A stretch of DNA of 17,364 bases from the NCBI GenBank assembly GCA_934569225.1, contig CAKTKC010000030.1:1-17364 (forward strand). Reading direction: 5' to 3'. The notes beneath the pieces were generated by a model. It had not been told where the DNA came from. It searched no databases and worked only from the letters and a program-made list of their open reading frames with translations. This document shows positions 1 through 16,866 of the stretch, piece after piece; positions within the stretch are counted from its first letter, which is position 1, and the number at the start of each line of letters is the position of its first letter. This DNA comes from an uncultured Oscillospiraceae bacterium (GTDB taxonomy: Bacteria > Bacillota > Clostridia > Oscillospirales > Oscillospiraceae). Position numbers and translations under genes: made by a program.

Positions 1-1
1 A

Positions 2-1135: not shown

Positions 1136-1153
1136 GATCAAACACAGAAAACA

Positions 1154-1206: not shown

Positions 1207-1239
1207 AGAATTTCCAGTTTATCCGCAAAGGAGGATGCA

Positions 1240-1443: not shown

Positions 1444-1719
1444 AAACCGGAAAGAAATTTGCGCGGCGGCGAAACGATTCCGCGAAACCGTGCTGCTCGG
1501 AATCGAGTACCGGCTTCACGGATGCGTGTGGGTTTGCATGGTTTCCTGCGAAGTCACGCGGTTCCGGAAAGTCGACACCCCTCGCTTACGAAGAGGACAT
1601 CATCCGCCGCTTTTCCAGCGGATTTCGGGAAAATAGAATATTTCACCACACAGCGAAGCAGGTTTTCGGAAACGCAACCCTGCTTCGCTGTTTTCATCAC
1701 AAAAATTGGGGAGGATTTT
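1444..1719 (+). other. Non-coding spacer with inverted repeats, possible oriT region
   Basis: The spacer lies between the small helix-turn-helix gene and the relaxase operon. It contains ATCCGC (1602-1607) facing GCGGAT (1618-1623) and a 12-base perfect inverted repeat, CAGCGAAGCAGG (1651-1662) against CCTGCTTCGCTG (1679-1690). An open frame crosses the spacer from 1459 but its translation does not look like protein. Origins of transfer for MobV relaxases normally lie upstream of the mob gene, so oriT is a reasonable expectation here; no known nick-site consensus was recognised. Confidence 0.35.
1651..1694 (+). terminator. Hairpin followed by TTTT, possible terminator or transfer hairpin
   Basis: Perfect 12-base arms at 1651-1662 and 1679-1690 enclose a 16-base loop and are followed by TTTTC. 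The stem strength fits an intrinsic terminator upstream of the relaxase operon, but the loop is long and the T-run short. It may instead be part of the origin of transfer. Confidence 0.4.
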
Positions 1720-1938
1720 ATGAGCATCAGAAATGAGATCAAGGCACAGATCGTCCGCGCTGGATTTACCATGCAGGAGCTGGTTGACCGTCTGGCCGAG
1801 GAATATGACTGGAGTGACAGCGTGTCCAACCTGTCTGCCAAGCTGCAAAGGGAGAGCATCCGATACAAGGAAGTTGTGGAGCTGGCCGATGTGCTGGGCT
1901 ATGACATAGTATGGCAGAAACGGAGGGATAACCGATGA
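1720..1938 (+). CDS. Small XRE/DUF6471-like putative DNA-binding protein (72 aa)
   Basis: The start was chosen at ATG 1720, with GGGGAGG at 1708-1714. The product begins MSIRNEIKAQIVRAG and contains a helix-turn-helix-like core (MQELVDRLAEEYDWSDSVSN, then a second helix, ending VLGYDIVWQKR). Proteins of this type are common next to MobV relaxases in Clostridia elements and are often mislabelled in databases. Its stop overlaps the relaxase start (ATGA at 1935-1938), so the two are probably translationally coupled, which suggests an accessory or regulatory role in mobilization. The exact family is uncertain. Confidence 0.75.
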   Translation: MSIRNEIKAQIVRAGFTMQELVDRLAEEYDWSDSVSNLSAKLQRESIRYKEVVELADVLGYDIVWQKRRDNR

Positions 1939-2894
1939 AAGCACAGTATGCCATTCTTCGCTTTGCCAAGTACAAGGGACCGGAGATCGGTCACATTGAG
2001 TCCCACAACGAGCGTACCAAGAAGAAGTATGCCAGCAATCCCGATATTGACACATCCCGAAGCCATCTTAACTTCCATCTGGTATCACCGGAACGCAAAT
2101 ACCGTGCGGAGGCCGAAAAGCAAATTGCTGAAGCAGGCTGCCGTACACGCTCCGACAGCGTGCGGGTGGTGGAAGCCCTGGTGACCGCCAGCCCGGAGTT
2201 TTTCAAGGGCAAGAAGAAATCCGAAGTCAAAGCCTACTTTACAGTGGCGCTGGACTTCATTCAAAAACATCAGTCAAAAGATACGATCATATCCGCCGTG
2301 GTGCATATGGACGAGAAGACTCCCCATATGCACCTTTGTTTTGTCCCGCTGACGGAGGACAAGCGACTCAGCGCCAAAGAAATCGTTGGCAACAAGAAAA
2401 AACTGACATGGTGGCAGGATGAATTTTGGAAGCACATGGTCGGGAAATATCCCGATCTGGAACGTGGCGAGAGTGCCAGTGAGACCGGACGCACGCACAT
2501 CCCGCCGAGGCTGTTCAAGGAGGCCGTGCACCTGAACCGAATGAAGGATCAGATCATGGCGATTCTGAATGACAGCAACCCCTTCAATAAAAAGTCCAAG
2601 GCAGAGGAATTGGAAACGCTGCTGGACAAGTACGTTCCCGGTGTAGAGGCCATGAGGACAAAGCTGAAAAAGTATGACAAGACCTACAAGGAGTTGACCG
2701 CAGAAAATGCAGAACTGGAAAAGGAACTCAACTCTGCATCCCGTGAGAGCATTCAGAAAAAACTGGAGATTCAGCGCAAGCTTTCCGAGCTGGATGAGCT
2801 TCGCCGCACCGTAGATTCCATCCCCGATGCCGTAATCCGGGAATACACCGAGCAGAAATATGTGCATCACGGTCGAATGAATCAGGAAATCTGA
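1935..2894 (+). CDS. MobV-family relaxase (plasmid recombination/mobilization protein)
   Basis: This relaxase nicks one strand at the origin of transfer so that the element can be moved by a helper conjugation system. The N-terminus carries the MobV motif HNER (residues 24-27), equivalent to the catalytic HxxR of pMV158 MobM. It is followed by NPDID (35-39) and SHLN (43-46), then the metal-binding HMDEKTPHMH at 124-133 (H124, H131, H133). Residues about 225-300 are rich in K, E and L with heptad-like spacing and probably form a coiled coil. At 319 residues it is shorter than MobM (494), as usual in this subgroup. GGAGGG at 1922-1927 serves as the ribosome binding site. It is coupled to the upstream 72-residue gene by an ATGA overlap. 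Confidence 0.93.
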   Translation: MKAQYAILRFAKYKGPEIGHIESHNERTKKKYASNPDIDTSRSHLNFHLVSPERKYRAEAEKQIAEAGCRTRSDSVRVVEALVTASPEFFKGKKKSEVKAYFTVALDFIQKHQSKDTIISAVVHMDEKTPHMHLCFVPLTEDKRLSAKEIVGNKKKLTWWQDEFWKHMVGKYPDLERGESASETGRTHIPPRLFKEAVHLNRMKDQIMAILNDSNPFNKKSKAEELETLLDKYVPGVEAMRTKLKKYDKTYKELTAENAELEKELNSASRESIQKKLEIQRKLSELDELRRTVDSIPDAVIREYTEQKYVHHGRMNQEI

Positions 2895-2925
2895 GGCAAT
2901 ACTACTTTTGAAAGAGAGGAATTCT

Positions 2926-3105
2926 ATGGCAGAAATCAAGGAAATGAAGCCGGGCATGACTGAACAGAAAAAGCAGGCTGTCATCGAACAGCTCTGGCTG
3001 ACTTATTACAATGATACGCTATTTGCAAAGGGGCTGATCACGGAAGAACAGCGCAATAAGATGCGTTTGATGATCAAGAGCCGTACTGCTGCAAAGGCGC
3101 GATAA
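2926..3105 (+). CDS. Small SHOCT-like protein (59 aa)
   Basis: The start is at ATG 2926, preceded by AGAGAGGA (2913-2920). The product is a short helical, lysine-rich protein whose second half (NDTLFAKGLITEEQRNKMRLMI) resembles the SHOCT pattern, a short helix, then GLITEEE-like turn and second helix. It sits 31 bases after the relaxase and just before a strong terminator, so it is probably the last gene of the mobilization operon. A role in oligomerisation or as an accessory or excision factor is possible; nothing in the sequence decides this. Confidence 0.7.
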   Translation: MAEIKEMKPGMTEQKKQAVIEQLWLTYYNDTLFAKGLITEEQRNKMRLMIKSRTAAKAR

Positions 3106-3113
3106 AATAAATA

Positions 3114-3155
3114 GGGCGGCAATCGTGAGATACGGTTGCCGCCCAAACTTTTTTT
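3114..3155 (+). terminator. Intrinsic terminator of the mobilization operon
   Basis: GGGCGGCAA (3114-3122) and TTGCCGCCC (3136-3144) form a perfect 9-base GC-rich stem, followed after AAAC by seven T (3149-3155). It stands nine bases after the small SHOCT-like gene and separates it from the recombinase promoter. Confidence 0.9.
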
Positions 3156-3158
3156 GAC

Positions 3159-3184
3159 AACTTTTCAAATCATCTTGAAAAGTT
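3159..3184. promoter_or_regulatory. Perfect inverted repeat over the recombinase -35 box (candidate operator)
   Basis: AACTTTTCAA (3159-3168) and TTGAAAAGTT (3175-3184) are perfect complements separated by six bases. The right arm contains the -35 hexamer (3175-3180), so a bound dimer would block RNA polymerase. The candidate repressor could be one of the element's small DNA-binding proteins or the recombinase itself. Confidence 0.6.
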
Positions 3185-3203
3185 CATTTGTTTGCGATAT
3201 AAT
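3175..3203 (+). promoter_or_regulatory. Sigma-A type promoter for the serine recombinase
   Basis: TTGAAA (3175-3180), a 17-base spacer and a perfect TATAAT (3198-3203) lie 43 bases upstream of the recombinase start. This gives the recombinase transcription independent of the mobilization operon. Confidence 0.85.
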
Positions 3204-3246
3204 GTTTGCTGATAATGATACAGCGAACTTTTTGAAGGAGACCATT

Positions 3247-4935
3247 ATGGATATACATTCTGTCAGACAACAGCTGCGGATGAAAAGCATCTACGATATT
3301 CCGCTTCGGGTAACCTACTATGCCCGTGTTTCCTCAGAATCGGATGAGCAGCTGAACTCTCTGGGCAACCAGATCAGTTATTACGAAGATTTCATCAGGA
3401 AGAACGCTGCGTGGACATTCGTGCCGGGATATATCGACGAAGGGCTGTCCGGTATTTCCACCAAACGCCGTGAGAATTTCAATCGAATGGTAGACGATGC
3501 CGAGACCGGTAAATTTGATCTTGTCATCACGAAGGAAATCTCACGCTTTGCCCGTAATACGCTGGACTCCATCCAGTATACCAGACAGCTGCTGAATGCG
3601 GGAGTAGGTGTCTTTTTCCAGAACGACAACATCAATACCTTTGACGAGGACTCCGAACTTCGTCTGTCCATCATGTCCTCCATCGCACAGGATGAACTCC
3701 GCAAGCTGTCCTCCCGTGTGAAATTTGGGCATCAGCAGGCCATCAAGCAGAATGTAGTGCTGGGCAACAGCCGCATCTTTGGATATATCAAAAATGATGG
3801 CCGTTTGGTTATAGATGAAGATCAGGCGGTGATGGTGCGGCAGCTGTTTGAACTGTATGCTACCGACGAATACTCCATGAAACAGCTTGAAACCCTGTTC
3901 TGGGAAAAAGGATACCGCAACCACAACGGTAAAAAAATTGCCCACTCCACCATGTCGGGCATGATCTCCAATCCCAAGTACAAAGGCTATTACGTGGGTA
4001 ATAAGGTCAAAGTAGTGGATATGTTCACCAAGAAGCAAAAATTTCTCCCGCCGGAGGAATGGGTCATGTTCAAGGATGAAACTGGTGAAATCGTACCGGC
4101 TATCGTTTCCGAAGAAGTGTGGGAGCAGGCTAATGCCGTACTTCGCAGGAGAAGCGAGGATGTGAAGAACCGACAGGGTGTCTGCAATCATGCCAATCTT
4201 TTGACCGGAAAGCTGTTCTGTACCCATTGTGGTACACCTTACTACCGCCGTGACTCCGTGGATCGGCAAGGTAACAAAAATTCCAAGTGGGTCTGCTCCG
4301 GGAAAATCAACAATGGCAAAGGCAGCTGTGATTCCATCCCGATCTATGAAAAAGAACTGATTCCGCTGCTCTTTGAGGTATTCCGTGATACAAGGGAAGC
4401 CTCCGCCGCTATGCTGGAAGAATACGAGCAGATGTACCGTTCCATGACCAGCGACGGCAACATCGGAAAGAAGATCGAAGCTGCACAGGCAACCATTGAG
4501 CTGACCCTGAAAAAGAAAAGCAAGCTGTTGGAATTGGTAGCCCTCGACAGTATCACCCCCGCTGATTTCAAGTCCATGACAACGCAGTGCAACGCCGACA
4601 TCAAAGCCGCTGAACAGGAGCTTGCCGAGCTTCGGGAACAGCAGGAATCCAGCGAGGAGTTCCGCAGCAACATGGAGCGTATCCGCAAGGTGCTTCGGGA
4701 TGCCGAGCGTGACTGTCAAAACGGCGAGATCACCAAGGAATTTATCGATACCTTTATTGATAAAATCTTTGCTACGCCGGAGGGTGACGGCACTATGCGG
4801 CTGGACATCAAGATTTTCACGGGTGAAAGCTGTGAAAAGTATCTGCAAAAACTGAAAAGAAGGGCAAATTTCGAAGGTTGTACGGGTCACACGTTCAAGA
4901 AGATGATCGAGGCTTACGAGCAGGGTCTGCAGTAA
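3247..4935 (+). CDS. Large serine recombinase (integrase/excisionase of the element)
   Basis: This is a 562-residue large serine recombinase that catalyses integration and excision. The start at ATG 3247 has GAAGGAG at 3234-3240; upstream in-frame codons would overlap the promoter. The resolvase domain begins with YARVS, placing the nucleophile at Ser29, and contains SRFARN at 99-104 with conserved arginines. A recombinase DNA-binding domain follows (about 180-300). A zinc ribbon has Cys325, Cys328, Cys350 and Cys361, and a long charged helical segment (about 400-480) matches the coiled coil that controls synapsis direction in this family. Length is normal and the protein appears intact. It is the last gene of the element, facing the acs cluster. 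Confidence 0.95.
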   Translation: MDIHSVRQQLRMKSIYDIPLRVTYYARVSSESDEQLNSLGNQISYYEDFIRKNAAWTFVPGYIDEGLSGISTKRRENFNRMVDDAETGKFDLVITKEISRFARNTLDSIQYTRQLLNAGVGVFFQNDNINTFDEDSELRLSIMSSIAQDELRKLSSRVKFGHQQAIKQNVVLGNSRIFGYIKNDGRLVIDEDQAVMVRQLFELYATDEYSMKQLETLFWEKGYRNHNGKKIAHSTMSGMISNPKYKGYYVGNKVKVVDMFTKKQKFLPPEEWVMFKDETGEIVPAIVSEEVWEQANAVLRRRSEDVKNRQGVCNHANLLTGKLFCTHCGTPYYRRDSVDRQGNKNSKWVCSGKINNGKGSCDSIPIYEKELIPLLFEVFRDTREASAAMLEEYEQMYRSMTSDGNIGKKIEAAQATIELTLKKKSKLLELVALDSITPADFKSMTTQCNADIKAAEQELAELREQQESSEEFRSNMERIRKVLRDAERDCQNGEITKEFIDTFIDKIFATPEGDGTMRLDIKIFTGESCEKYLQKLKRRANFEGCTGHTFKKMIEAYEQGLQ

Positions 4936-4941
4936 CGCAAA

Positions 4942-4980
4942 CAGGGCGCTCCTTCCGAGCGCCCTGCCTTTTCATTTTTA
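4942..4980 (+). terminator. Intrinsic terminator after the recombinase
   Basis: CAGGGCGCTC (4942-4951) and GAGCGCCCTG (4957-4966) form a perfect 10-base stem with a five-base loop, followed by the T-rich CCTTTTCATTTTT. It lies between two convergent genes. On the minus strand no T-run follows the stem, so it mainly serves the recombinase. It also marks the area where the element's end should lie. Confidence 0.85.
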
Positions 4981-5589
4981 CATCTGGCTTTTGATCGTAG
5001 AGATCAGAATGTCCCCCGCCACGACCCGATCTTCCGCGGCGAAGCCTTCCGCAAAGTTGTCGGAATAGATCACCTGGGCGTTTGGGGGGAATTCGTCGTC
5101 CCCTTCCCAGACCAGGATTTGCATCCGATAGCCGCCGATCAGATCGAACTGATAGCCCGCGTCCCCATGAGACAGGGGCAGCGCCTGCATCTTTTTGCAG
5201 GCAGCCTTGAAAGCCGCCAGCCGGGTGCCGAACGTGAAGGCTGCCCGGGTCAGCACGCGGCCGGTGTAGGGCTTGATGTACATCTCCCCCCAGGGCATCT
5301 CCCGGAAGGTCTTCCACTGTCCCTGCCAGGCCACGTCTTTGCTCTCCAGCAGATAGCGCAGCAGAAACGTCTGGGAGGGCAGCGGCGGCAGTGCCCCGCC
5401 ATCCAGAGCGCGGATGGCATAGTCCGGGTGGGCAATGGCAAACGCCCTGCCCAGAAGACCGAGGGTGAATTCCTTCCCGTCCCAGTGGACGTCTGACAGT
5501 CTCGCCGTCACGGCGGCGGGGTTCAGACTGCGGAACAGCTCCGCATAATGGGCAAAGGGGGCTTCTTCTTTGTGGTTTTCTACTTGCAT
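4978..5589 (-). CDS. DUF3786 domain protein
   Basis: The 203-residue soluble protein matches the DUF3786 family in length and pattern: an N-terminal helical part, then a DVHWDGKEFTLGLLGR core, and the C-terminal signature YSDNFAEGFAAEDRVVAGDILI. It has no signal peptide or membrane segment. DUF3786 genes are often found in strict anaerobes near corrinoid or CODH/ACS genes, and this one is the last gene of the acs-side operon, 12 bases after the YaeR-like gene. The ribosome binding site is AAGGAAT-type. Its molecular function is not known. The C-terminus appears complete, so the adjoining mobile element has not truncated it. Confidence 0.85.
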   Translation of the reverse strand: MQVENHKEEAPFAHYAELFRSLNPAAVTARLSDVHWDGKEFTLGLLGRAFAIAHPDYAIRALDGGALPPLPSQTFLLRYLLESKDVAWQGQWKTFREMPWGEMYIKPYTGRVLTRAAFTFGTRLAAFKAACKKMQALPLSHGDAGYQFDLIGGYRMQILVWEGDDEFPPNAQVIYSDNFAEGFAAEDRVVAGDILISTIKSQM

Positions 5590-5980: not shown

Positions 5981-7906
5981 TTACGCCTCCTGAATGGAGT
6001 GGGGGAACAGTCGCTTGTCCGTATGGGGCAGGAAGCAGGCGGCTACAAAGGAATCCATGTAGCCGGGGTATGTAGAAAGCTCCAGATAGGTCATGTTCGC
6101 GGCCACCTCCGCGGTCTTCGCGGCGGCCTCGTCGCTCATGACCATGGCATACGCGCCGGACAGGGAGGAGTTGCCGATGTAGTGGAACTTCTCCAGCTCC
6201 ACGTCCGGGAACATGCCGATGTTCACCGCGTTCTTCATGTTGATACCGGAGCCGATACCGCCGGCAACATAGACGTTCTCGATGGCTTCCACGGGCATAT
6301 CCACGCTTTGCAGCAGCGTCGCAATGGCGGAGAAAATCGCGCCCTTGGCACGGATAAAGTTGTCAATGTCCACTTCATTGATGGACACTTCCCGGCCGGT
6401 TTCGCTTTCGTTTTCAAAGGCGATAACGTAACGCCCCATGCCGTGGTGATCCCGGCGGACGCGCTCGCCTTCCCGGACGAACAGGCCCTTGGCGTTGACG
6501 ATGCCGCAGCGGTACAGTTCGGAAATGATGTCGATGATGCCGCTGCCGCAGATGCCCACGGCCTTCTGATCCGCGTCGCCCACGATGGAAACGGTGGGTT
6601 CCATGGTCACCTTGTCAATGGTGCAGGCTTCGATGGCGCCATCCGTGGCGCGCATGCCGCAGGAAATGTCGCCGCCCTCAAAGGCAGGGCCGGCAGAACA
6701 GGCGCAGCTCACAAGGAAGTCCCGGTTGCCGAAGACGATCTCGCCGTTGGTGCCCAGGTCGATGAACAGGCTCAGCGCATCGCTGTCCCAGATACCGGAG
6801 GCCAGCGTACCGGCGGTGATGTCGCCGCCCACGTAGGAACCAATGTTGGGGGCAATGAGTACCGGCGCCAGGGGGTTGGCGGGAAGCTTCAGATCCTGCG
6901 CCAGCAGCCCGTTCCACAGGAAGAAGCTGGGTATGTACGGATCCATCCGTACGCTCTGGGCATCCACACCCACCAGCAGGTGATTCATGGTGGTATTCGC
7001 GCCCACGCTCATGCGCAGAATGGACGGACAGGTGATCCCCGCGGACTTGCACAGATTGGCAATGATGGGGTTCAGTGTCTCCTTCAGAATGGCGTCCTGA
7101 AGCTTTTTCCTGCCGCCGGGCTTGCCCTGCTCGATGATACGGTTGATAACGTCCGCGCCGTAGCGGATCTGGCCGTTGCCGGAGGAGCCCTTCGCCAGGA
7201 TCTTGCCTGTGGTCAGATCGGTCAGTACCATGGTGACCGTGGTGGTGCCGATATCGATGGCACAGCCGATGATATTGGTGTCCTCCGGAGCGCAGATCTC
7301 CATGCAGCGGAAGGTATCGCCCAGAAGTTCGCCCTTCACGCACACGTGGAAGCTGTTCTCCCGCAGAACGTGGGCAAGCTTCACCATGACGCAGAAGGGA
7401 ATCTCCACCTTCTCTACGCCCAGCGCTTCCTCAAGCGCCCATGTCAGGCGCTCGTTGTCGGGCATGGTGTCGTCCAGACTCGGCTCGGCCATGGTCACGA
7501 CCACCGCCCGGAGCCGATTGGTAAAGTGAATGCCGCTCTGCTTCAGCTGGCTCTGGCAGGCGTCAAAAATGGCGACCTCCTGGGGGCTGCTCAGGTCGGC
7601 GGTCTTCATCCGGGACTGGTAGGCGCTGGCAATGTCCGGGACAAACACGGTGCAGTCGCCGACGACCTTCGAGCTGCAGCTCAGGCGCCAGCCTTCGGCA
7701 TATTCTTCGTCGGAAATATGGCGGCTGGGGTAGGATTCCAACTCTCCCTCCACCAGCTTGATGCGGCACTTGCCGCAGGAGCCGTTGCCGGAGCAGGGGG
7801 CGTCGATGGCAATATTGCCCCGGCGCGCCAGTTCCAGCAGATTATCTCCGGCGTTGCATTCCATTGTAACAGGGGCTGCCCCCTCAATTTGAAAAACAAC
7901 TTTCAT
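5981..7906 (-). CDS. acsV: Corrinoid activation/regeneration protein AcsV (RACo)
   Basis: This 641-residue enzyme is the reductive activator of the corrinoid iron-sulfur protein; it uses ATP to return oxidised Co(II) to the active Co(I) state. The N-terminal plant-type [2Fe-2S] ferredoxin domain has Cys38, Cys44, Cys47 and Cys77 (CX5CX2CX29C). The C-terminal DUF4445/ASKHA-fold ATPase shows DIGTTT at 218-223, LFIDLGTNGEIVFG and VAGGIGSG around 547-554. The start at 7906 was chosen because MKVVFQIEG begins the ferredoxin fold and AAAGGAA lies upstream. An ATG at 7975 would translate the hairpin region. It follows acsB in the same orientation after a structured 250-base spacer. Confidence 0.95.
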   Translation of the reverse strand: MKVVFQIEGAAPVTMECNAGDNLLELARRGNIAIDAPCSGNGSCGKCRIKLVEGELESYPSRHISDEEYAEGWRLSCSSKVVGDCTVFVPDIASAYQSRMKTADLSSPQEVAIFDACQSQLKQSGIHFTNRLRAVVVTMAEPSLDDTMPDNERLTWALEEALGVEKVEIPFCVMVKLAHVLRENSFHVCVKGELLGDTFRCMEICAPEDTNIIGCAIDIGTTTVTMVLTDLTTGKILAKGSSGNGQIRYGADVINRIIEQGKPGGRKKLQDAILKETLNPIIANLCKSAGITCPSILRMSVGANTTMNHLLVGVDAQSVRMDPYIPSFFLWNGLLAQDLKLPANPLAPVLIAPNIGSYVGGDITAGTLASGIWDSDALSLFIDLGTNGEIVFGNRDFLVSCACSAGPAFEGGDISCGMRATDGAIEACTIDKVTMEPTVSIVGDADQKAVGICGSGIIDIISELYRCGIVNAKGLFVREGERVRRDHHGMGRYVIAFENESETGREVSINEVDIDNFIRAKGAIFSAIATLLQSVDMPVEAIENVYVAGGIGSGINMKNAVNIGMFPDVELEKFHYIGNSSLSGAYAMVMSDEAAAKTAEVAANMTYLELSTYPGYMDSFVAACFLPHTDKRLFPHSIQEA

Positions 7907-7943
7907 AGTGGGTAGTTCCTTTCGTAGGACGTTATGTAGCAAA

Positions 7944-7972
7944 ATGTGGGAGGGGCTGCGCCCCTCCCACAT
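7944..7972 (-). terminator. Strong hairpin between acsB and acsV (terminator or attenuator)
   Basis: Perfect 12-base arms ATGTGGGAGGGG (7944-7955) and CCCCTCCCACAT (7961-7972) enclose a five-base loop. On the minus strand the stem is followed by TTTTGC. It lies only 38 bases upstream of the acsV start, leaving no room for a promoter after it. It therefore probably acts as a partial terminator that lowers acsV expression relative to acsB. Confidence 0.6.
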
Positions 7973-8156
7973 CAAAATCAGGATTTCGCTGCCGCAGCAG
8001 CCATCCGTGCGCCATCTGCGGAGAAACGACTCAGGGTCAGATGGTCACGCAATATTCTCTTTCGCGGTTATCACCGCAGTAACGAACCGAGCGGTACCCA
8101 ATGGCGTAGAGACTACAGACCAGCCCTGTCACGCATTGCCCGCGGCGGCTCGCCGC
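7973..8156. other. Structured non-coding spacer downstream of acsB
   Basis: No gene is apparent. In addition to the terminator-like hairpin next to it, several inverted repeats are present. GCTGC pairs with GCAGC at 7988-8001, CCATCTG (8012-8018) with CAGATGG (8038-8044), GCGGT (8064-8068) with ACCGC (8073-8077), and GCGGCG (8142-8147) with CGCCGC (8151-8156). The last hairpin touches the acsB stop codon. The spacer may be an interspersed palindromic repeat element of this genome or an mRNA-processing region. Confidence 0.5.
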
Positions 8157-10283
8157 TTACATTAAAGGTTCCATAGCCAGAACGGGATGACCCTTCTCGG
8201 TCAGCCAGTTCAGCAGCTCCTCGCAGTCGGTAGTAACGGTCTCGTCGGCAACCATGTCGGTGAAGTTGTCGATGCCGTACAGCTCCTTGGCCGTCTTGTT
8301 CAGACGCTCGGCAACGTCGTCCTTCAGCTCCTTGGGCATCCAGACAATGCGCTCGATGCCGCCCTCAGCAGCGATGAACTTCTTGGAGGAGATGAAGTGA
8401 CGGCCGTGACCCATGTAGCCGGGGGTCTGGACGCCGCCGCCGGTGCAGGAGGCCAGCTCGCCGAAGGTCATACCGGCAGGGGTCATGCCCTTGTATTCCC
8501 GGTTCACAACGATGAAGCCGTTGGACATCGGCTCAATGCCGCAGATGCACTCGAAGCAGCCGCAGGAGGTCATCGGGTCCTCCAGAATGGAGTACAGGGT
8601 GACGTTCTCAACAGCGCCGTGGGTCGCGTCGGAGATCGCCTTGTTGACGGACTGGAAGCGGCCGGTGCGCTCGTCCTCGCAGCCTTCCTTGAAGATGGGC
8701 TGGCAGGGACCGTTGGGGTTCAGCTCGTAGGTAGCCTTGGCATCCAGCCAGGACACAGCGCCGCACAGACCCAGACGCTCGGGGGTGACCACGCAGCAGT
8801 GGGCGGGGGCGAAGGACTGGCACATGATGCAGGTGAAGTAGCGGTCAACGGCCTCGTCGGTCATGGACGCCAGACGGTCGTCGCGCTGGTTGTACCGGGG
8901 CATAGCCACCTCGTCACGGAACTTCTCCGCCTGGGCGGCGTCGGTGATCAGGGTGATCTGGCACTTGTCCACAACGGCGTCGAACTCGTCCATGATCATA
9001 ACGTACAGAACCTCGGCGAAGTCCTTCAGCCGCAGACCCGCCTCGTAAGCCGCGTTGCTGACACGGATACGAACCTGGTTACGCTGGCCGGTGTGCATAA
9101 CGCCTTCCATGTAGTTGAACCATGCGTGGAACTTCCGCTCGATAACGGACTCGAAGTCCACCTGCATCTTCTTGCCGGCCACCTCAACGTAGGTCGCCAG
9201 AGCCAGATCCTTGGCCTGATCGAAGTCGGGGCCGACGATGCTGATCTTGTGATCCTCGATTTCATTCAGCTCCCGCATCACAACCAGCTCGGCAGTGGGG
9301 TTCTTGGCAGACCAGATCTCGTTGTGCATGTCGGCCTTACGGATGATCTCGCCCTCGAAGGCAGCAGCGAAAGCCACGGGGATGGGCAGTTCCTTTACCT
9401 TGATCTTGATGTTCCGCAGCTCCAGAGACTTCTTCACGGTCTCGGCATGGTCGCATACGGACTCCAGAGCGCCGGGAACCTGATTCTCGCCCAGGTCGAT
9501 GTCCACGACCACGGGGAAGCCCAGAGCGATGGCGCCCGCACCGGCGGAAACCACCACGGAGTCAATGGCGCCGAAGGTGTTGACGAAAGCGGGAACACGG
9601 TTCTTGGTGTAGTCCAGCAGAGCGGCCAGATTGCCGGGCTGAACGTTGCCGAAAATCAGAGCGGCACGGATGGCCACGGTGACGACATGGATAACAGCGG
9701 TCACGTCATGTCCCAGAGGAATGACACGCAGCTCCAGACCCATCTTGACGCCGCCCTCGGCGCACTGCTCGATGACGTCGCCCACCATGAAGGTCATGAT
9801 GCCCTTGCTCTGGTAGTCCTTGACCACCTTGACCACGTCCTCAGCATTGTCCGCCTTGCCCAGCACAACGGCTACGCCGGGGATATCGCCGGTAACCAGC
9901 GGCACGCCCAGAGAACGGATGATGGGATCGGGAACAAAGCCGATGCCGGACTCGTTCTCATAGGGGTTCGCACCGTCGATGTATTTCAGTCCCTCAATGA
10001 TCTCCGCGCCGACAGCGGTGGCCAGGCCGGCGTTCAGCGCCTGACCCAGATCCTCCTGGTTGGTGATCAGGCTCTTGAGCACGCCCACGCAGGCGGGCAG
10101 GTCGCCCAGGGTCTTGACCTTTACGCCGGTAGCAGCGTAAATGGTGGGGAAAAAGTATGCGGTATCGGGGAAGGCAATCTCCTTGTCTGCGCCGTACTTG
10201 GCAATGGCGTCGTTGACGGCACCTTCGGTCAGTCCCGCAACGGCATTGGAACCGCCATAAATGAGATCGGTTAATACGCTCAT
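8157..10283 (-). CDS. acsB: Acetyl-CoA synthase (CO-methylating), AcsB
   Basis: AcsB joins the methyl group from the corrinoid protein, CO and coenzyme A into acetyl-CoA at the nickel-containing A-cluster. The 708-residue length fits bacterial AcsB (729 in Moorella). The [4Fe-4S] ligands are Cys485, Cys488, Cys497 and Cys507, and the distal nickel site is the Cys574-Gly-Cys576 motif. All are offset by exactly 21 from Moorella Cys506, 509, 518, 528, 595 and 597, so the active site is intact. The start at 10283 has GGGAGGA (10291-10297). An upstream in-frame ATG (10298) would overlap this site. It is separated from the upstream acsC-acsE fusion by 412 bases with a strong terminator-like hairpin. 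Confidence 0.97.
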   Translation of the reverse strand: MSVLTDLIYGGSNAVAGLTEGAVNDAIAKYGADKEIAFPDTAYFFPTIYAATGVKVKTLGDLPACVGVLKSLITNQEDLGQALNAGLATAVGAEIIEGLKYIDGANPYENESGIGFVPDPIIRSLGVPLVTGDIPGVAVVLGKADNAEDVVKVVKDYQSKGIMTFMVGDVIEQCAEGGVKMGLELRVIPLGHDVTAVIHVVTVAIRAALIFGNVQPGNLAALLDYTKNRVPAFVNTFGAIDSVVVSAGAGAIALGFPVVVDIDLGENQVPGALESVCDHAETVKKSLELRNIKIKVKELPIPVAFAAAFEGEIIRKADMHNEIWSAKNPTAELVVMRELNEIEDHKISIVGPDFDQAKDLALATYVEVAGKKMQVDFESVIERKFHAWFNYMEGVMHTGQRNQVRIRVSNAAYEAGLRLKDFAEVLYVMIMDEFDAVVDKCQITLITDAAQAEKFRDEVAMPRYNQRDDRLASMTDEAVDRYFTCIMCQSFAPAHCCVVTPERLGLCGAVSWLDAKATYELNPNGPCQPIFKEGCEDERTGRFQSVNKAISDATHGAVENVTLYSILEDPMTSCGCFECICGIEPMSNGFIVVNREYKGMTPAGMTFGELASCTGGGVQTPGYMGHGRHFISSKKFIAAEGGIERIVWMPKELKDDVAERLNKTAKELYGIDNFTDMVADETVTTDCEELLNWLTEKGHPVLAMEPLM

Positions 10284-10420
10284 GTGAATTCCTCCCAATT
10301 TTTGTAATCCTCAAAGATAATATATATTAAGCCCGAAGGCTGAATATACCAATTTATTTTCCGGCACCACGCCGGGGCTTTCAAATGCAGCAAATCCTTC
10401 CAAAACAGAAAAAGCAAACT
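10284..10420 (-). other. Leader region upstream of acsB
   Basis: These are the bases between the terminator-like hairpin and the acsB start. They are AT-rich for this part of the genome, with TATATT and TATTAT-like stretches near 10318-10350, which would suit a promoter. No -35 and -10 pair with a 16-18 base spacer is convincing, so none is claimed. The GGGAGGA ribosome binding site at 10291-10297 is clear. Confidence 0.35.
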
Positions 10421-10695: not shown

Positions 10696-12966
10696 TTAAA
10701 GCTCCAGGTAGGAGTCGGAGTAGAGGACGTGGTTCTTGAAGATGTCGCAGGACTTGATGGTCTCCATCAGACGCAGGTCGCAGGGGTTGACGATGGCGGA
10801 GGTCAGACCCTGCATCATCGCCATGGCAACCAGAGCGGAGTCCATGATGGGACGGACGGTCTTGGGCGCGCCATTGGAGTTGTTGGACAGACCGCCGGTG
10901 GACTTCAGGCCCTCGTCGGCGAACATCTTGATAGCGTTCAGAACGTCCATCTGCTTGTCCTGCATGCCCTTGACAACCAGGAACAGGGGGTCGAACCACA
11001 GATCGTCGGAGGCCATGCCCAGGCTCATGCCGCGCTCCAGCATGTTGTGGCAGTGCTTCATGCGTTCTTCGTTGTCCTTGGCAATGCCGTCGGCAGAGCA
11101 GAGGGCGATACAGATGGCGTCGTTGGCAGCAGCCAGATCGATGTTGGAAATACGGGAACCGGCATCGGCGGAGTTGACGATGGGCTTGCCGTTGGTGCGG
11201 TTGTAGACCTTGATACCGGCCTCGATAGCCCGCTTGTTGGCGGTGTCCAGTGCCAGAGGAACGTTGTTGAAGTTCTCCTGCAGCAGCTTGACAGCCCACA
11301 TCATGCGCTCGGGACCGTCCTTCTCAGCAGGGCCGATGTTGACGTCCAGATAGGTGGCGCCGGCAGCGATCTGCTCAGCAGCACGCTTCAGGATGGGCTC
11401 GGGATCCCGCTCGTCCATAGCCTTGCGGACGGAAGGCGCAATGCAGTGGATACGCTCGCCGATGGTGACGAAGGTCTTGCTCTCGGGGTTGTGACCCTTG
11501 TACTGCACGCCCATGTCCACGACCTTGATCTCGGGAACCTTGGTAGCCAGCAACTCGTCGAAGGACAGCTCCTTGACTTCCACCTGAGTGGCAGCCTTGG
11601 CGGCGTTCTCGGCGGCGGCAGCCTTGGCGGCGGCCTCGTATTCCTTGTCCTTCATGTACTTGGGCAGCTGAACCGCTTCGGTGGGGCCAACAACGACGTT
11701 CCAGCCGGGCAGCTTCTCCTGAATTTCACCCTTCATAACGGCAACCTTGCCGGGGATGATCAGGGTGCGGTTCTTGATCTTGTTCTCGATGTCCAGGGTC
11801 TCGAAGGTCTTCTTGACGGTGGTGGAGGAGAACTTACCGGCAGCCCAGGCAGTCAGAACGGACATGCCGGATGCGTCGGTGATGATCAGATTCACGGGCT
11901 CGTTGGAACGCTCCAGCTCGCCGGAAACCAGGAAGTAGGTCAGCGCGAAGTCCACGGTCAGGGCGCAGGGGCTGTTCTCGTCGGCGCCGTTCAGAGGATA
12001 GATCTTGCTCTCCACCTTCATGGGCTTCTGAGGATCGGTGAAGATGTTCTGACGCAGGCCGTACAGAGGCAGCGCCTGAGCATAGGTCATGTTCTCCATG
12101 ACGATGATGGAGGCGTACTTCTCGGTGAACATGGAAGCGTAGGCGGTCTGCAGATGGTCATCGCCGCTGGCGATACGGGCGACGTTGACGATGGAGGGAT
12201 AGCCGAAGCTACGGTCGCCATCCTTGATGGCGGTGCGGCGCACCAGAACGGCGTTGGCCAGGGTCTCCTTGGCGGTCTTGCCGGTGACATCCAGAACCAG
12301 GTTCTTGTTGCCGGCGGCTTCCAGCTTCTTCACGGTGTCGTACAGGTCGGAGATGGTGTCGGCGTGAACGCCCAGAACAACGCCGGCCTCCTTGGCGACA
12401 GCGTTCATAGCCTCGTAGTTTTCAGGGGTAGCGCCGTCCAGAATGACGTTCTTGCCCGCGACTGCCAGAGCAGCCTTGGCGCACTCCACATCCCAGCACT
12501 CCAGGATCAGGTCACGGCCGGTAGCAGCGGCCTTCTTGACCAGCTCCGCGTAGACGGCGGGATCGGACTGCTTGTTGGCGACGAAAACGAACTCAACGTA
12601 CATTCTCTCGCCGATACGCTCGTAGTCAACCTTCTGCAGCTCGGCCAGCTTCTTGTCGGCTTCCTCAGCGGACATGCAGGTGCAGACGGAAACTGCGTAC
12701 AGGTTCTTGTTGACCAGAGTCTTCTCGTGACGGTAGAGGACAGTCTCGCCGCCCAGCTTGTGGTCGCCGACGGTGATGGTCTTCATGGGAGGCGCAGTCT
12801 GCTCGTTGAGCATCGCCTTCGCGTCGTCAGAGAAGTAGGGGCACTTGTCGATGGACACAGCGCCCTGCGCCACCTTCATGCAGAATGCCATACAGGTGGG
12901 GCTGCCGCACTCCTTACAGTTCTTCTTAGGAGACAGCTTAAAAATGTCAAGACCTTTCAAAGCCAT
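10696..12966 (-). CDS. acsC/acsE: Fusion of corrinoid iron-sulfur protein large subunit (AcsC) and methyl-THF methyltransferase (AcsE)
   Basis: This 756-residue polypeptide joins two Wood-Ljungdahl proteins that are normally separate. Residues 1 to about 440 are AcsC: the [4Fe-4S] cysteines are Cys17, Cys20, Cys25 and Cys42, followed by a TIM-barrel and the C-terminal corrinoid-binding part. Residues about 441-498 are a linker with an alanine-rich stretch (445-459). Residues 499-756 match AcsE/MeTr, which moves the methyl group from methyl-tetrahydrofolate to cobalt: IGERI at 502-506, and pterin-site residues Asp574, Asn598 and Asn695 (GLSN) corresponding to Moorella Asp75, Asn96 and Asn199. 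Both halves have near-normal length (Moorella AcsC 446, AcsE 262). There is no sign of a frameshift. The gene starts 20 bases after acsD, in the same operon. Confidence 0.93.
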   Translation of the reverse strand: MALKGLDIFKLSPKKNCKECGSPTCMAFCMKVAQGAVSIDKCPYFSDDAKAMLNEQTAPPMKTITVGDHKLGGETVLYRHEKTLVNKNLYAVSVCTCMSAEEADKKLAELQKVDYERIGERMYVEFVFVANKQSDPAVYAELVKKAAATGRDLILECWDVECAKAALAVAGKNVILDGATPENYEAMNAVAKEAGVVLGVHADTISDLYDTVKKLEAAGNKNLVLDVTGKTAKETLANAVLVRRTAIKDGDRSFGYPSIVNVARIASGDDHLQTAYASMFTEKYASIIVMENMTYAQALPLYGLRQNIFTDPQKPMKVESKIYPLNGADENSPCALTVDFALTYFLVSGELERSNEPVNLIITDASGMSVLTAWAAGKFSSTTVKKTFETLDIENKIKNRTLIIPGKVAVMKGEIQEKLPGWNVVVGPTEAVQLPKYMKDKEYEAAAKAAAAENAAKAATQVEVKELSFDELLATKVPEIKVVDMGVQYKGHNPESKTFVTIGERIHCIAPSVRKAMDERDPEPILKRAAEQIAAGATYLDVNIGPAEKDGPERMMWAVKLLQENFNNVPLALDTANKRAIEAGIKVYNRTNGKPIVNSADAGSRISNIDLAAANDAICIALCSADGIAKDNEERMKHCHNMLERGMSLGMASDDLWFDPLFLVVKGMQDKQMDVLNAIKMFADEGLKSTGGLSNNSNGAPKTVRPIMDSALVAMAMMQGLTSAIVNPCDLRLMETIKSCDIFKNHVLYSDSYLEL

Positions 12967-12986: not shown

Positions 12987-13928
12987 TTACACGAGATCCG
13001 TGATGAACTTCTTGATGGTGGCAACGGCTGCGGGATGACGCATGATGACAGCGTCAGCGCCGCCGGTCAGGTTGGCAGCGGCGGTGGAGACTTCCATCCC
13101 GATCGCGCGCTCTTCCCGGCTGCCCCATTCGGGCTCATCTTCTTCGGAAGCGGTGGATTCCTTCACGGCCCAGGCGTCGGGAGACACGGGGGACATGATG
13201 GGCATCTGCAGGTCGGCATCGGACTGCGCCAGAGCGGCCAGACGGACACGATCCAGAGTGGAGGCCACGTACTCGAAGCCGTAACCCACGGCGGCGGTGC
13301 CGATGTTCATGACGATGTTCTCAGGGTTGATGGAGAGGCCCTTGAGCATGATGTTCAGCTGCTTGGCGAGGTTGATGTCGTCAGCGGTCTCAGCGCCCAC
13401 CTTCTGGCCGTAAGCCAGAGCGACGGAAGCACCGACGGTCTTGTAGTCCTCGTTCCGGGCGGACAGAACCAGAATGTTCTTGCCCTGCAGCGCCTCAGCG
13501 ATCTTGCTGAACAGCTCGCCGTCCTTCTCGATGTTCTTGCAGCCCATGACCACGATGGGCATAGTGGTTGCCTCGGCGACAGCCTTGGCGTCGGCCACAC
13601 AGTCGGCAACGGAGCGGTTGGCGCCGTTGGGGTCTGCGGACTCGAAGTGCAGGCACAGGAAATCCGCGCCGGGCATGGTCTCCGCCTTCTTGGCAAAGTC
13701 AACCATGGTGCTGCAGCCGGCGTAGAACTCCTTCAGAGCAGGAGCATCCCACTCTGTTGCCAGATCGGAAATTTCAATACCGATCTTGGGCGCGTGTTCG
13801 ATGGCAGCATCGAAGGTGTAAAACGGCATCACGTTCTGACCGCCGATGACGATTGCCTTGTCACCGGTGCCCAGCGTCACGGCATTGATCTTGCCGCTGA
13901 AGGGTGCCGTTTTAGGAGTGAAAGCCAT
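12987..13928 (-). CDS. acsD: Corrinoid iron-sulfur protein small subunit AcsD
   Basis: This is the small subunit of the corrinoid iron-sulfur protein; it pairs with AcsC to hold the cobamide that carries the methyl group to acetyl-CoA synthase. The 313-residue TIM-barrel protein is close to Moorella AcsD (323). Recognisable parts are the start KINAVTLGTGDKAIVIGG, the segment FESADPNGANRS, the sequence MNIGTAAVGYGFEYVAST and the acidic stretch before GSREERAIGMEVSTAAA near the C-terminus. The start at 13928 has an AGGGGGAT ribosome binding site. An earlier in-frame ATG at 13970 has no similar support. It lies between cooC and the acsC-acsE fusion. Confidence 0.96.
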   Translation of the reverse strand: MAFTPKTAPFSGKINAVTLGTGDKAIVIGGQNVMPFYTFDAAIEHAPKIGIEISDLATEWDAPALKEFYAGCSTMVDFAKKAETMPGADFLCLHFESADPNGANRSVADCVADAKAVAEATTMPIVVMGCKNIEKDGELFSKIAEALQGKNILVLSARNEDYKTVGASVALAYGQKVGAETADDINLAKQLNIMLKGLSINPENIVMNIGTAAVGYGFEYVASTLDRVRLAALAQSDADLQMPIMSPVSPDAWAVKESTASEEDEPEWGSREERAIGMEVSTAAANLTGGADAVIMRHPAAVATIKKFITDLV

Positions 13929-14006
13929 AATTTGTAATCCCCCTTGATATTTTTTCCACACGCAGGGCAAAAAATCGCCCGGCGCAATTATGGATGTGTT
14001 TCTGCC

Positions 14007-14043: not shown

Positions 14044-14811
14044 TCACAGGCCGATAGACTGCATGATCCCCCGCAGCGCGACCTTCATGGGATCGCTGTC
14101 CGGGAGCTTCGCGGACGGATTTCCGTCGCAGTCGCAACGGTAGACCGCCTCGTCGTGAGGCAGGACGCCGAAGAGCTTGAGACCGTGCTTTTCGATCTCG
14201 GCGCGGATGCCGTCGTCCAGCTTTCCCTCCGGCGCACGGTTGATGATCAGCCCCATCTGTCCTGGATTGAGATTCATCTCGTCGATCATTTCGGCAATTC
14301 TCGCCACGGCCTGAACGCCCCGGCGGGAGCAGTCGGAAATCAGAAGCATGGTGTCCACATGGGGAAGCGTCCCCCGGGCGATATGCTCCAGCCCCGCCTC
14401 GTTGTCCATGACCACGTAGGAATAGTTGGGCAGATATTTGGCCAGCTGGGATTGCAGCACGCCGTTGACATAGCAGTAGCAGCCCTTGCCCTGGGTGCGG
14501 CCCATGACCAGCATGTCGAAATCGTCGTCTTCGATCAAGGCGTCGCCGAACTTCATTTCCGCGTAGTCCGCCTTGGTCATGCCCTTGGGAATGGTGCCCT
14601 TCAGCTCTGCCTGTGCCATCTCCTCGCGAATCTGGCCGAGAGAGGTCTCCACCTCCACACCCAGAACCTCGTTCAGGTTGGAATTGGCGTCGGCGTCCAC
14701 CACAAGGACGGGGCCGCGCTTCTTTGCGCACAGGTAATCGATGATCATGCCGCAGGTAGTGGTTTTGCCCACGCCGCCCTTGCCGGCAACGGCAATGGTA
14801 TGAGGTGCCAT
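14044..14811 (-). CDS. cooC: CooC/AcsF-type nickel-insertion ATPase
   Basis: This is a MinD-like P-loop ATPase (255 aa) of the CooC family, which helps insert nickel into CO dehydrogenase or, for the AcsF type, into the A-cluster of acetyl-CoA synthase. The deviant Walker A motif GKGGVGKTT lies at 10-18, VVDADANSN at 37-45 and the CooC-typical Cys111-Tyr-Cys113 motif (Cys112/Cys114 in characterised CooC1), which binds metal at the dimer interface. The start at 14811 has AAGGAG (14821-14826). Earlier in-frame codons translate the leader hairpins. It is the first gene of the cluster. With acsB but no CODH gene nearby, an AcsF-type role in maturing AcsB is the more likely one. Confidence 0.92.
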   Translation of the reverse strand: MAPHTIAVAGKGGVGKTTTCGMIIDYLCAKKRGPVLVVDADANSNLNEVLGVEVETSLGQIREEMAQAELKGTIPKGMTKADYAEMKFGDALIEDDDFDMLVMGRTQGKGCYCYVNGVLQSQLAKYLPNYSYVVMDNEAGLEHIARGTLPHVDTMLLISDCSRRGVQAVARIAEMIDEMNLNPGQMGLIINRAPEGKLDDGIRAEIEKHGLKLFGVLPHDEAVYRCDCDGNPSAKLPDSDPMKVALRGIMQSIGL

Positions 14812-15025
14812 AGTCTGGTTCTCCTTAAAAGTGGTTTTGCGAAACGCGGATCCGGGAGCAGCCCCTCCCGCGTTTGTCTCCCTCCCGGAAATCGGAAAGG
14901 AACGATCGACGGTGCCGAATTTCGTCCATACAGGCCGCGTCACCACGCGCATTCAAGGCTCGGGAGCCGTTTTTGACTGCGGATGGTGACCTTGCCCTAC
15001 GGGCGCACTTCGCCCATATCGATAC
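14812..15025 (-). promoter_or_regulatory. Long structured leader upstream of cooC
   Basis: About 210 bases separate the predicted transcription start from the cooC start. They contain AAACGCGG (14842-14849) paired with CCGCGTTT (14868-14875), GCGT/ACGC at 14937-14948 and GGCTC/GAGCC at 14957-14968. Two mutually exclusive hairpins share the bases GGGC at 15001-15004: GCCC/GGGC (14994-15004) and GGGCG/CGCCC (15001-15015). The arrangement could allow switching. No cobalamin, T-box or other riboswitch consensus was recognised, and part of the leader may be an interspersed repeat. Confidence 0.4.
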
Positions 15026-15512: not shown

Positions 15513-15586
15513 GCAGGATTCGTACATCGGTAGTACAACAGCTTCCCAAGCTGTGAAGGCGGGTTCGACTCCCGTATCCTGCTCCA
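15513..15586 (+). tRNA. tRNA-Gly (anticodon CCC)
   Basis: A complete cloverleaf of 74 bases can be drawn. The acceptor stem is GCAGGAT with ATCCTGC, the D stem GTAC/GTAC, and the anticodon stem ACAGC/GCTGT around the loop TTCCCAA. A four-base variable loop follows, then a T arm GCGGG/CCCGT with loop TTCGACT, discriminator T and an encoded CCA. The anticodon CCC reads GGG codons. It has its own promoter and a downstream terminator. Confidence 0.96.
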
Positions 15587-15686: not shown

Positions 15687-16286
15687 TCAAAAGTTTTCCT
15701 CGATCAGCGCCCGGAACGCGTCCCGGGAAAGCGGATCCGTCACGGAAATGGAGTAGGCGTAGCTTCCGTCCGTCCAGATGGCCAGACTGTACGCGCCGTC
15801 GTTGCCCTTCAGGGTCACGGCGTTTCCGGAAATTTCCAGTGTTTCCTCCTGTGCGTACACATTGTAATCGCCGGAATTGTCCTCCGTTCCGGGGGATTTG
15901 CGGTAGCACAGGCTGTCGGTGCCGCCGAAATACTGAACCTCCGCCAGGTTGTCCCAATAGGACACATATTCCGTGCGCTCCACCGTAAAGGGAACGCCCG
16001 TCAGCTTCTCCAGGGGAATACCCGTTTTTTCGGTCAGCGCTTCCAGGCTGTCCACGGTGTCGATCTGGGCGACCGCCATCATTCCCTGCTCAGGCGGGTC
16101 GGCCTGCTTCGGCTTCCAGACGTACCAGCAGCACACCACAATGGCAAGGCAGGCCGCCAACGTAAACAGACGCCGGGTCAGCTGACGCTTCTTCTGCTTT
16201 GCCCGTTTTGCTTCCACATTGTGGAGGACTCGCTGCCGCATTTCCGGCGTCACTTCGATTTTATCCATGATCTGCTCATACTTCAA
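15687..16286 (-). CDS. Membrane-anchored DUF4367-like protein, putative anti-sigma factor
   Basis: This 199-residue protein has a basic cytoplasmic N-terminal part (about 1-39). A single membrane segment follows at about 40-57 (LFTLAACLAIVVCCWYVW), then an extracytoplasmic domain. The end of that domain (VTLKGNDGAYSLAIWTDGSYAYSISV ... ALIEENF) resembles DUF4367, a domain found in proteins partnered with ECF-type sigma factors. It overlaps the upstream sigma gene by 11 bases, the usual layout for a sigma and anti-sigma pair. No ZAS zinc motif (HxxxCxxC) is visible, so inhibition of the sigma factor is inferred from context and topology. The inducing signal is unknown. Confidence 0.75.
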   Translation of the reverse strand: MKYEQIMDKIEVTPEMRQRVLHNVEAKRAKQKKRQLTRRLFTLAACLAIVVCCWYVWKPKQADPPEQGMMAVAQIDTVDSLEALTEKTGIPLEKLTGVPFTVERTEYVSYWDNLAEVQYFGGTDSLCYRKSPGTEDNSGDYNVYAQEETLEISGNAVTLKGNDGAYSLAIWTDGSYAYSISVTDPLSRDAFRALIEENF

Positions 16287-16866
16287 AGTCGTAGCCCTCC
16301 TGTAAAATGGTTTTCAGCTTCTCCCTGCCCCGGCGAAGGTCGGAACGGACAGTGGACGGATTCCGCCCCAGAATCTTTGCGATTTCCTCTGTGGAATAGC
16401 CCTCGTAATAGTGCAGGTGGATCACCTCCCGGAACTGCACCGGCAATTCCTTCACCGCGTCCCAGACGAAGGACAGGTCCTCCCGCCCTTCCTCCGCCAG
16501 CTCGTCACTCAGCTCGTCAGAGGTTCGGAGGGCGTTGTACTCGATGCGGTTCTTGCTCAGATTCGCCGCCACCCGCAGAAGCCAAGCCTTCTTGTGTTCC
16601 TCGCTTTCAAAGTTGGGAGCGGCGGTCAGCAGCTTCAGAAGCGTGTCCTGCAAGACTTCCTCCGCATCCGCCATGTTATGGAGATAACTGTAGGCGCAGC
16701 GCAGAATCGCGTTTCCGTATTTGTCCAGAGCATCCGCCGCCATCTGCCCCGCCCGGTCATCCGCCTTCGTCTGCTGCTTTTCCTGCGGGATCAGCCGAAG
16801 GGCAAACGCGTACAGCCGCCCCAGAAGCCGCCACCACAGGGGCATGGGAATTGCTATTGCTTCCAT
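16276..16866 (-). CDS. RNA polymerase sigma factor, sigma-70/ECF-like
   Basis: This 196-residue alternative sigma factor has region 2 at about 48-110 (YGNAILRCAYSYLHNMADAEEVLQDT) and region 4 at about 136-186, with a helix-turn-helix (YSTEEIAKILGRNPSTVRSDLRRGREKL). The start at 16866 has an AAAGGAAC ribosome binding site. This start gives about 40 extra residues before region 2, including a hydrophobic, Trp-rich stretch (MPLWWRLLGRLYAFALRLIP), which ECF factors do not normally have. An internal Met42 would give a standard length but has a weak ribosome binding site. It is cotranscribed with the downstream putative anti-sigma gene. Confidence 0.9.
   Translation of the reverse strand: MEAIAIPMPLWWRLLGRLYAFALRLIPQEKQQTKADDRAGQMAADALDKYGNAILRCAYSYLHNMADAEEVLQDTLLKLLTAAPNFESEEHKKAWLLRVAANLSKNRIEYNALRTSDELSDELAEEGREDLSFVWDAVKELPVQFREVIHLHYYEGYSTEEIAKILGRNPSTVRSDLRRGREKLKTILQEGYDFEV

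Follow-up and report, generated by a model that had tools for sequence, protein, structure and literature searches.

The window analyzed here is a stretch of 17,364 nucleotides from an uncultured Oscillospiraceae bacterium, and at 10696..12966 on its minus strand it encodes AcsC and AcsE as a single protein of 756 residues. The frame runs uninterrupted from an ATG at 12966, with a GGAGG located 5′ of it, to a stop codon at 10696-10698. The original prediction of the two proteins in one uninterrupted 756-residue frame is borne out by that frame and by both halves scoring above their NCBIfam cut-offs; the strand, which it had not given, is minus. Pfam matches are FeS at residues 13-44, CdhD at 70-436, and Pterin_bind at 519-727. 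Judged by its sequence, the fusion is real, conserved, and in frame, with key residues of both halves kept.

In the order of transcription, the cluster consists of a CooC-like ATPase, acsD, the acsC-acsE fusion, acsB, acsV, a glyoxalase-like gene, and DUF3786. At its head, at 14044..14952 on the minus strand, is the gene for the CooC-like P-loop ATPase (CbiA/AAA_31), which we take by name to be CooC/AcsF. Directly upstream of the fusion is acsD for the small CFeSP subunit (12987..13970, minus strand; NF040759, 470 bits against 430). Downstream on the same strand are encoded the acetyl-CoA synthase, acsB, at 8157..10298 (NF040764, 999 bits against a cut-off of 800), and the corrinoid reductive activator, acsV, at 5981..7975 (NF040756, 922.6 bits against a cut-off of 800). 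No CODH gene is identified within the window. A broader indication of the pathway comes from the 31 fused genomes, those behind 31 of the best 80 related loci that we collected. CODH (TIGR01702) scores above the cut-off in 25 of these, elsewhere in the genome and in five of them on the fusion's own contig (G002, G017, G024, G026, and G030), and FTHFS (PF01268) does so in 30; hence, the fused genomes mostly hold these other Wood-Ljungdahl genes.

The AcsC part is residues 1-441 (11644..12966, minus strand), and NF003195 matches it over that length with 509 bits against a cut-off of 306. Its four-cysteine FeS motif scores 44.5 bits against a cut-off of 23 with PF04060. Cys17, Cys20, Cys25, and Cys42, which had been named as the kept Fe-S cysteines, are indeed cysteine in 81/81 aligned sequences, and they align with cysteines of solved CFeSP chains. 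The solved relatives of residues 1-440 are all CFeSP chains, the best being 9fzy_F. A putative corrinoid-binding region is placed at about residues 315-442 with the help of HgcA-type corrinoid models, which match residues 315-447 with scores all under their own cut-offs and are used for domain placement only. By that placement, AcsE starts directly behind the likely corrinoid-binding region. The AcsC companion, AcsD, is encoded alongside, in a gene order that is seen in related loci too.

The AcsE part, the methyl-THF:CFeSP methyltransferase, is residues 498-756 (10699..11475, minus strand). It passes NF040758 with 465.5 bits against a cut-off of 370, covering profile positions 3-261 of 261. 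The solved relatives of residues 501-755 are the MeTr chains 1f6y, which aligns over all of that range, and 2e7f, whose sequence is also the one in 4djd. Asp574, Asn598, and Asn695, predicted as pterin-site residues, align with positions 75, 96, and 199 of 1f6y, counted along the alignment, and Asp659, which the prediction did not name, aligns with position 160 of this Moorella thermoacetica enzyme. We take D75, N96, D160, and N199 of AcsE to be the pterin-site residues. Their counterparts here, D574, N598, D659, and N695, are invariant in 54/54 sequences. The general methyltransferase model NF005719 stays below its cut-off on the fusion protein (178.7 bits against 259). In place of a separate AcsE chain of about 262 residues, we find AcsE fused within one frame, and it is thus a variant of the NF040758-type AcsE.

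Between the halves, an alanine-rich linker of about 58 residues had been predicted. A linker is present at residues 442-497, 56 residues in all, but it is Ala-rich only in about its first 25. Alignment columns divide it into an Ala/Lys-rich tether whose length varies (residues 442-466; 11569..11643, minus strand) and a pre-AcsE segment in which certain positions are conserved (residues 467-497; 11476..11568, minus strand). In the latter, P478 and I480 are kept in 54/54 sequences, Y489 in 53/54, and V487 and F469 in 52/54. The two standalone AcsE proteins compared, P0198 and P0231, begin MAKFITIGERIH and have no such segment. The AlphaFold model of linker plus AcsE has a mean pLDDT of 69.5 and a pTM of 0.69, with pLDDT of 75-91 at residues 466-495 versus 45-62 in the blocks covering the tether. 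The full-length model has a mean pLDDT of 75.6 and a pTM of 0.47, is poor at the C-terminus, and has a helix at 442-458 with pLDDT of 70-88 and a pLDDT of 85 over 471-490. Both models are mediocre and disagree on the tether, of low confidence in one and helical in the other, but they agree on confidence in the pre-AcsE segment, which by these models probably lies against the barrel of the methyltransferase. The relative placement of the AcsC and AcsE halves is beyond the reach of two models this weak.

Single chains matching both families turn out to be plentiful in protein databases, as had been proposed for checking. Among 7,999 candidates scored, the best 120 are all 749-763 residues long with 100% coverage, and the top protein cluster alone has 3,114 member sequences. 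Genome contigs gave 526 stretches encoding a relative, of which the best 80 were kept; these are titled Oscillospiraceae, Faecousia, Avoscillospira, Limimonas, Butyricicoccus, Pseudoflavonifractor, Ruminococcaceae, and unresolved Clostridia or Bacillota. One of the 80 (L049) is interrupted by an in-frame TAG at residue 443, beyond which the linker can still be recognized, and the other frames are open over the full match length.

Sampling by taxonomic rank, with samples that overlap in a few genomes, indicates where the fusion resides. The genus sample is the genus of G011 and G014, the latter of which carries L037, titled Candidatus Faecousia intestinigallinarum. AcsC scores above the cut-off in 87 of its 121 genomes, in 88 copies, a count that leaves aside 6 more genomes with AcsC fragments under the cut-off. 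Complete fusions make up 61 of the 88 copies; 16 are fused and end inside AcsE, 12 of those frames at a contig end; in 10 the contig ends ahead of AcsE, which makes them uninformative; and one, G1390, has a TAG in the linker, which is the L049 case again, with the same sequence around the TAG. Hence, 77 of 78 informative copies are fused, and by this sequence count the fusion is common within its lineage. Of the 300 genomes in the family sample, 86 carry AcsC above the cut-off, and 31 of these 86 are fused: 27 complete, 3 incomplete (G377, G427, and G589), and one, G458, with a frameshift in AcsC, behind which the AcsC tail and AcsE are in one frame. The other 55 are unfused, 49 of them with a standalone AcsE above the cut-off, 3 with AcsE fragments (G344, G372, and G590), and 3 with no match (G444, G525, and G561). 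AcsE above the cut-off is found in 8 of 295 genomes of the order sample, 4 fused, one of which is the query genome, and 4 standalone. AcsC is carried by 22 of 391 genomes in the class sample and 118 of 398 in the phylum sample, and by frame length there is no fusion among these carriers beyond the query genome; independent fusions elsewhere in the phylum were looked for in these two samples and not found. Standalone AcsE above the cut-off is present in 18 of the 21 other class genomes with AcsC.

An assembly or annotation artefact, or a C-terminal half in decay, is an explanation to consider with source genomes that are nearly all MAGs, with one linker stop in 80 loci, and with the AcsC frameshift of G458. 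It is opposed by the many independent assemblies that contain the fusion, which refute an assembly artefact for the lineage, and by the invariance of the catalytic residues together with the dN/dS of AcsE, so we consider it extremely improbable. Over 13 close relatives and up to 78 pairs, AcsE has the lowest median dN/dS of the four parts, 0.11, followed by the tether at 0.14, AcsC at 0.19, and the pre-AcsE segment at 0.23; the values of the two linker parts are rough because the parts are short. By this comparison, the AcsE half is under strong purifying selection. The pre-AcsE segment is at the other end of the range, and by itself its value is no argument for strong constraint.

A second, intact acsE elsewhere in the genome had been suggested as a refuting observation. 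Each of the 31 fused genomes has exactly one AcsE above the cut-off, and in every case the frame around it is 756 residues or longer. Under the threshold, 13 of these genomes encode small AcsE-like proteins, 15 in total, and 3 MetH-sized frames match as well. Of the small methyltransferase-like proteins, 14 of the 15 were scanned, and 12 pass the NF005719 cut-off. Such paralogues in 13 of 31 genomes are what might lead one to ask if the AcsE half is dispensable, with an NF005719-type methyltransferase serving the pathway in its stead. The remaining 18 fused genomes have no small paralogue (17 with no further AcsE-like match at all, one more with a MetH-sized match only), the AcsE omega is the lowest of the four parts, and similar small matches occur beside standalone AcsE in split genomes too, which makes the small paralogues unlike a replacement. 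We rate a dispensable AcsE half as very unlikely. The AcsE search in the genus covered 58 genomes and 20 others; in the 58 further genus genomes, AcsE above the cut-off lies in fused frames, in contig-end frames (G1395, G1411, and G1433), or behind the TAG (G1390). The 280-residue AcsE frame of G1411, on a different contig from the fused copy, was considered as a separate acsE and rejected. It starts at a contig end, and over 315 bases its DNA is 91.7% alike to the AcsE-and-linker end of the fused copy, which suggests a further copy of the fusion truncated at that end.

To see how the fusion may have come about, we examine 60 split loci having both genes on one contig, 42 from the family sample and 18 from the class sample, leaving out six genomes with acsC and acsE on different contigs. 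In 60/60, acsE is 3′ of acsC on the same strand. The gap has a median of 48 nucleotides, is at most 100 nucleotides in 48/60, and ranges from -8 to 846; the two genes are in the same frame in 27/60. Because acsE adjoins acsC downstream in the split relatives, loss of the acsC stop codon is a sufficient route to the fusion. The commonest gene order, CooC-AcsD-AcsC-AcsE-AcsB-AcsV-DUF3786, is found in 36 of 100 fused loci and 12 of 61 split loci, counts in which loci are unequal in length, some places occur twice, and L049 is counted as split.

The concatenated tree of 93 rows, 33 of them fused, puts all fused rows and the split G384 in one clade with an SH-aLRT of 97, and needs 2 changes between the fused and split states. 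A smaller, more careful tree of 27 fused and 18 split rows supports the clade of fused rows plus G384 at 100/97. A clade of the fused rows alone is not rejected, with a p-AU of 0.292, yet appears in just 8% of 200 bootstrap trees. The separate genes give different pictures: in the AcsE-only tree, the 33 fused rows form one clade with an SH-aLRT of 99, and in the AcsC-only tree, G384 groups with seven fused rows. The G384 genes are separate, with a clean stop, an SD-like site, an ATG belonging to acsE, and no linker remnant. The proposal to map the fused chains on a phylogeny is hence answered by their clustering within one clade, joined by G384 in the concatenated tree. The fusion probably arose once by these trees, and what fits best is one fusion event with a G384 that has recombined or split again, which we favor over two fusions.

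The fusion could also be nearly neutral, a harmless loss of a stop codon with no kinetic or structural gain over the split pair. Split and fused forms do occur in one family with their commonest gene order in common, acsC and acsE are frequently in frame with each other where they are neighbors, G384 represents a lineage with split genes, and by omega the constraint is weakest in the pre-AcsE segment. But the fusion has been kept through a clade so divergent that its members reach as low as 71% identity to the window, and invariant positions occur in the segment, which P0198 and P0231 lack. We see neutrality as somewhat unlikely. The reading that we prefer, and hold to be likely from the sequence comparisons, is a genuine, selected fusion that would make a bifunctional CFeSP-methyltransferase with MetH-like tethering.

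Comparison with solved and related systems helps to place this protein. The Moorella thermoacetica AcsC/AcsD and AcsE of 4djd, whose source species we presume to be that one, are the same two enzymes with the same key residues at the same pathway step, and according to the title of the entry, CFeSP and MeTr were co-crystallized as a complex. AcsC and AcsE are separate chains there, whereas here they are one chain with a 56-residue linker. The closest solved AcsC, at 50% identity in the structural alignment, is in 9fzy, where CFeSP is bound to CODH/ACS; it is a chain of 450 residues without AcsE, and here AcsE is attached. The split acsC-acsE operons of the family and class have the commonest gene order and an NF040758 AcsE in common with the fusion, but are two genes where the fusion is one, with a pre-AcsE segment added relative to P0198 and P0231. 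MetH is alike in one respect, since a single chain there tethers a barrel that binds methyl-THF to a cobalamin domain, and differs in families and in domain order. The MetH model TIGR02082 reaches 87.4 bits on the fusion against a cut-off of 1010.85, and the methyl acceptor of MetH is homocysteine, not acetyl-CoA synthase. By this analogy, the fusion may work like a MetH but is not one. The best 50 Foldseek matches in the PDB are folds of the CFeSP, MeTr, MetH, DHPS, and KDO8P-synthase types, with nothing unexpected.

MeTr moves a methyl group from methyl-THF to Co(I) on CFeSP, after which the corrinoid domain visits ACS. On the preferred reading, an ancestor among gut Clostridia of the Oscillospiraceae type would have lost the acsC stop codon and joined acsC to the adjacent downstream acsE. 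The AcsC half together with AcsD would carry the corrinoid and the FeS cluster, and the AcsE half, suspended from the corrinoid-binding domain by the Ala-rich tether and the segment of conserved positions, would bind methyl-tetrahydrofolate and hand its methyl group to the corrinoid of the AcsC half. The methylated corrinoid would then methylate the acetyl-CoA synthase AcsB, and AcsV would reactivate corrinoid that had become oxidized. Tethering would make the two partners stay together, as in methionine synthase (MetH). We infer from this arrangement that both halves would be active in a stable complex and that tethering may bring a rate advantage. The original prediction of methyl transfer in cis, a 1:1 stoichiometry, and a simpler methyl branch would be in keeping with such a protein but goes further than its sequence shows. 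MeTr is a homodimer, and a dimer of AcsE halves would hold two CFeSPs. A bolder version, which we put forward tentatively and with more doubt than conviction, is a convergent MetH-like corrinoid machine within the Wood-Ljungdahl pathway, with the methyltransferase permanently on the mobile corrinoid domain, the new segment as a clamp, and, through the AcsE dimer, a stable (AcsCE)2(AcsD)2 assembly that would load and deliver methyl groups without dissociation.

The AcsE half may also have a life of its own. An AcsE-only protein search finds 272-residue proteins named by NCBI with 86-92% identity to the window, some labelled dihydropteroate synthase. Three of these, P0144, P0158, and P0171, are identical to the C-terminal ends of the uninterrupted fused frames L058, L040, and L080 and begin at a Met equivalent to Met485 of the window, a putative internal initiation site at 11512..11514 on the minus strand. 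P0164, of 276 residues, is taken from the fused L095 and begins four residues earlier; the remaining 11 of the 15 NCBI entries tested have no exact match among the loci collected. As far as the sequences indicate, these entries reflect either an error of gene calling or real production of some free AcsE. In the latter case, the gene could have two products, with free AcsE made beside the full fusion through translation that begins internally at Met485 or through proteolysis of the tether, and methyl transfer would be largely intermolecular. Of 53 fused loci, 43 have a Met 9-22 residues ahead of IGERI, and anti-SD pairing at that Met has a median of -6.0 kcal/mol, stronger than the -2.9 at other internal Mets (n=1513), with -10.0 at the true start and -6.8 kcal/mol at Met485 of the window; to these can be added the four NCBI entries starting there within uninterrupted fused frames. 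On the other side, the Met is missing in 10 of the 53, and about half of the equivalent sites are weaker than -6. The pairing may also be a coincidence, given that the loci are related and that the upstream codons specify a conserved peptide. We judge two products to be unlikely, if less so than a dispensable AcsE half.

The original prediction knew of no description of this fusion, and none is found in the literature searched, exact phrases included, in which few subscription journals are covered. As far as searched, then, this architecture of known enzymes is undescribed. Two parts of the pathway that are separate in well-studied species are joined in uncultured gut bacteria, and this may underlie reports of a missing acsE. 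The natural tethering of a methyltransferase to the corrinoid domain makes testable whether CFeSP and MeTr need to dissociate in each cycle, and the puzzle of the missing acsE and this natural experiment in tethering make the fusion worth following up. A search assigning one KO to each gene would plausibly label the fused gene as AcsC only. In the main text of PMC11338639, acsE is "not detected in 78 %" of Oscillospirales genomes, and the words "fused" and "fusion" are absent; going by that text, we infer that the fusion plausibly accounts for the gap. Passages of PMC10823672 have acsE missing in some MAGs as well, and the fusion in the passages seen of PMC5736913 is hdrB-hdrC. In a portion of PMC12449052, acsE is a required marker for calling an acetogen, with 69 putative acetogen MAGs selected and acsB in 449; under the rule as worded in that portion, carriers of the fusion could be undercounted.

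The acsC-acsE frame is interrupted in one related locus, L049 of genome G1390 (G1390:C9), where the codon for residue 443 of the fusion is an in-frame TAG, with several further changes close by, and a complete AcsE is encoded downstream of it in a frame of 313 aa. This TAG may have come from an error in sequencing, may be polymorphic, or may mark the gene beginning to split. Genome G384 (locus L125) carries acsC and acsE as two genes of mixed affinity, its AcsC clustering with the AcsCs of fused proteins and its AcsE falling outside the fused AcsE clade, for which recombination is a possible explanation.

The public entries have irregularities of their own. NCBI gives the name dihydropteroate synthase to AcsE-type proteins including P0137, P0144, P0158 and P0164, and three of the entries so named (P0144, P0158 and P0164) are pieces of fused frames. 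P0143, P0152, P0168, P0174, P0179 and P0180 are AcsE-like proteins of 261 aa with 86-89% identity to the window, in which the start resembles standalone AcsE and the remainder the fused kind; they come from contigs of about 1.0-4.7 kb, and are possibly assembly chimaeras or recombinants.

Genome G1397 has 2 copies of the fusion on separate contigs (L188 and L189), and the same arrangement probably holds for G1411 (L190 and L191), the copies of which have 91.7% DNA likeness across 315 bases. The pairs may be true duplicates, or they may reflect a mixture of strains within the MAG. In the genome behind L022, Pseudoflavonifractor sp. MSJ-30 (G011), no CODH or FTHFS passes its cut-off, although the record title carries no MAG label. 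The assembly may be incomplete, the contig may be foreign, or the cluster may exist here without the remaining pathway.

At the end of the acs cluster the window encodes a DUF3786 protein (4978-5589). Comparison of gene order across related loci finds this gene closing the cluster in many of them, fused and split alike, making it a candidate for an accessory role in the pathway, though it has no stated function. Adjoining the cluster are mobile-element genes (window 1-4935), encoding a DUF5906 protein whose D5-type matches are weak (2-1135), a Mob_Pre relaxase (1935-2894) and a large serine recombinase (3136-4935); the element may carry the cluster or may just lie next to it. Elsewhere the window holds a tRNA-Gly(CCC) at 15513-15586, while 15687-16866 encodes an ECF-type sigma factor and, after it, an unclassified protein.
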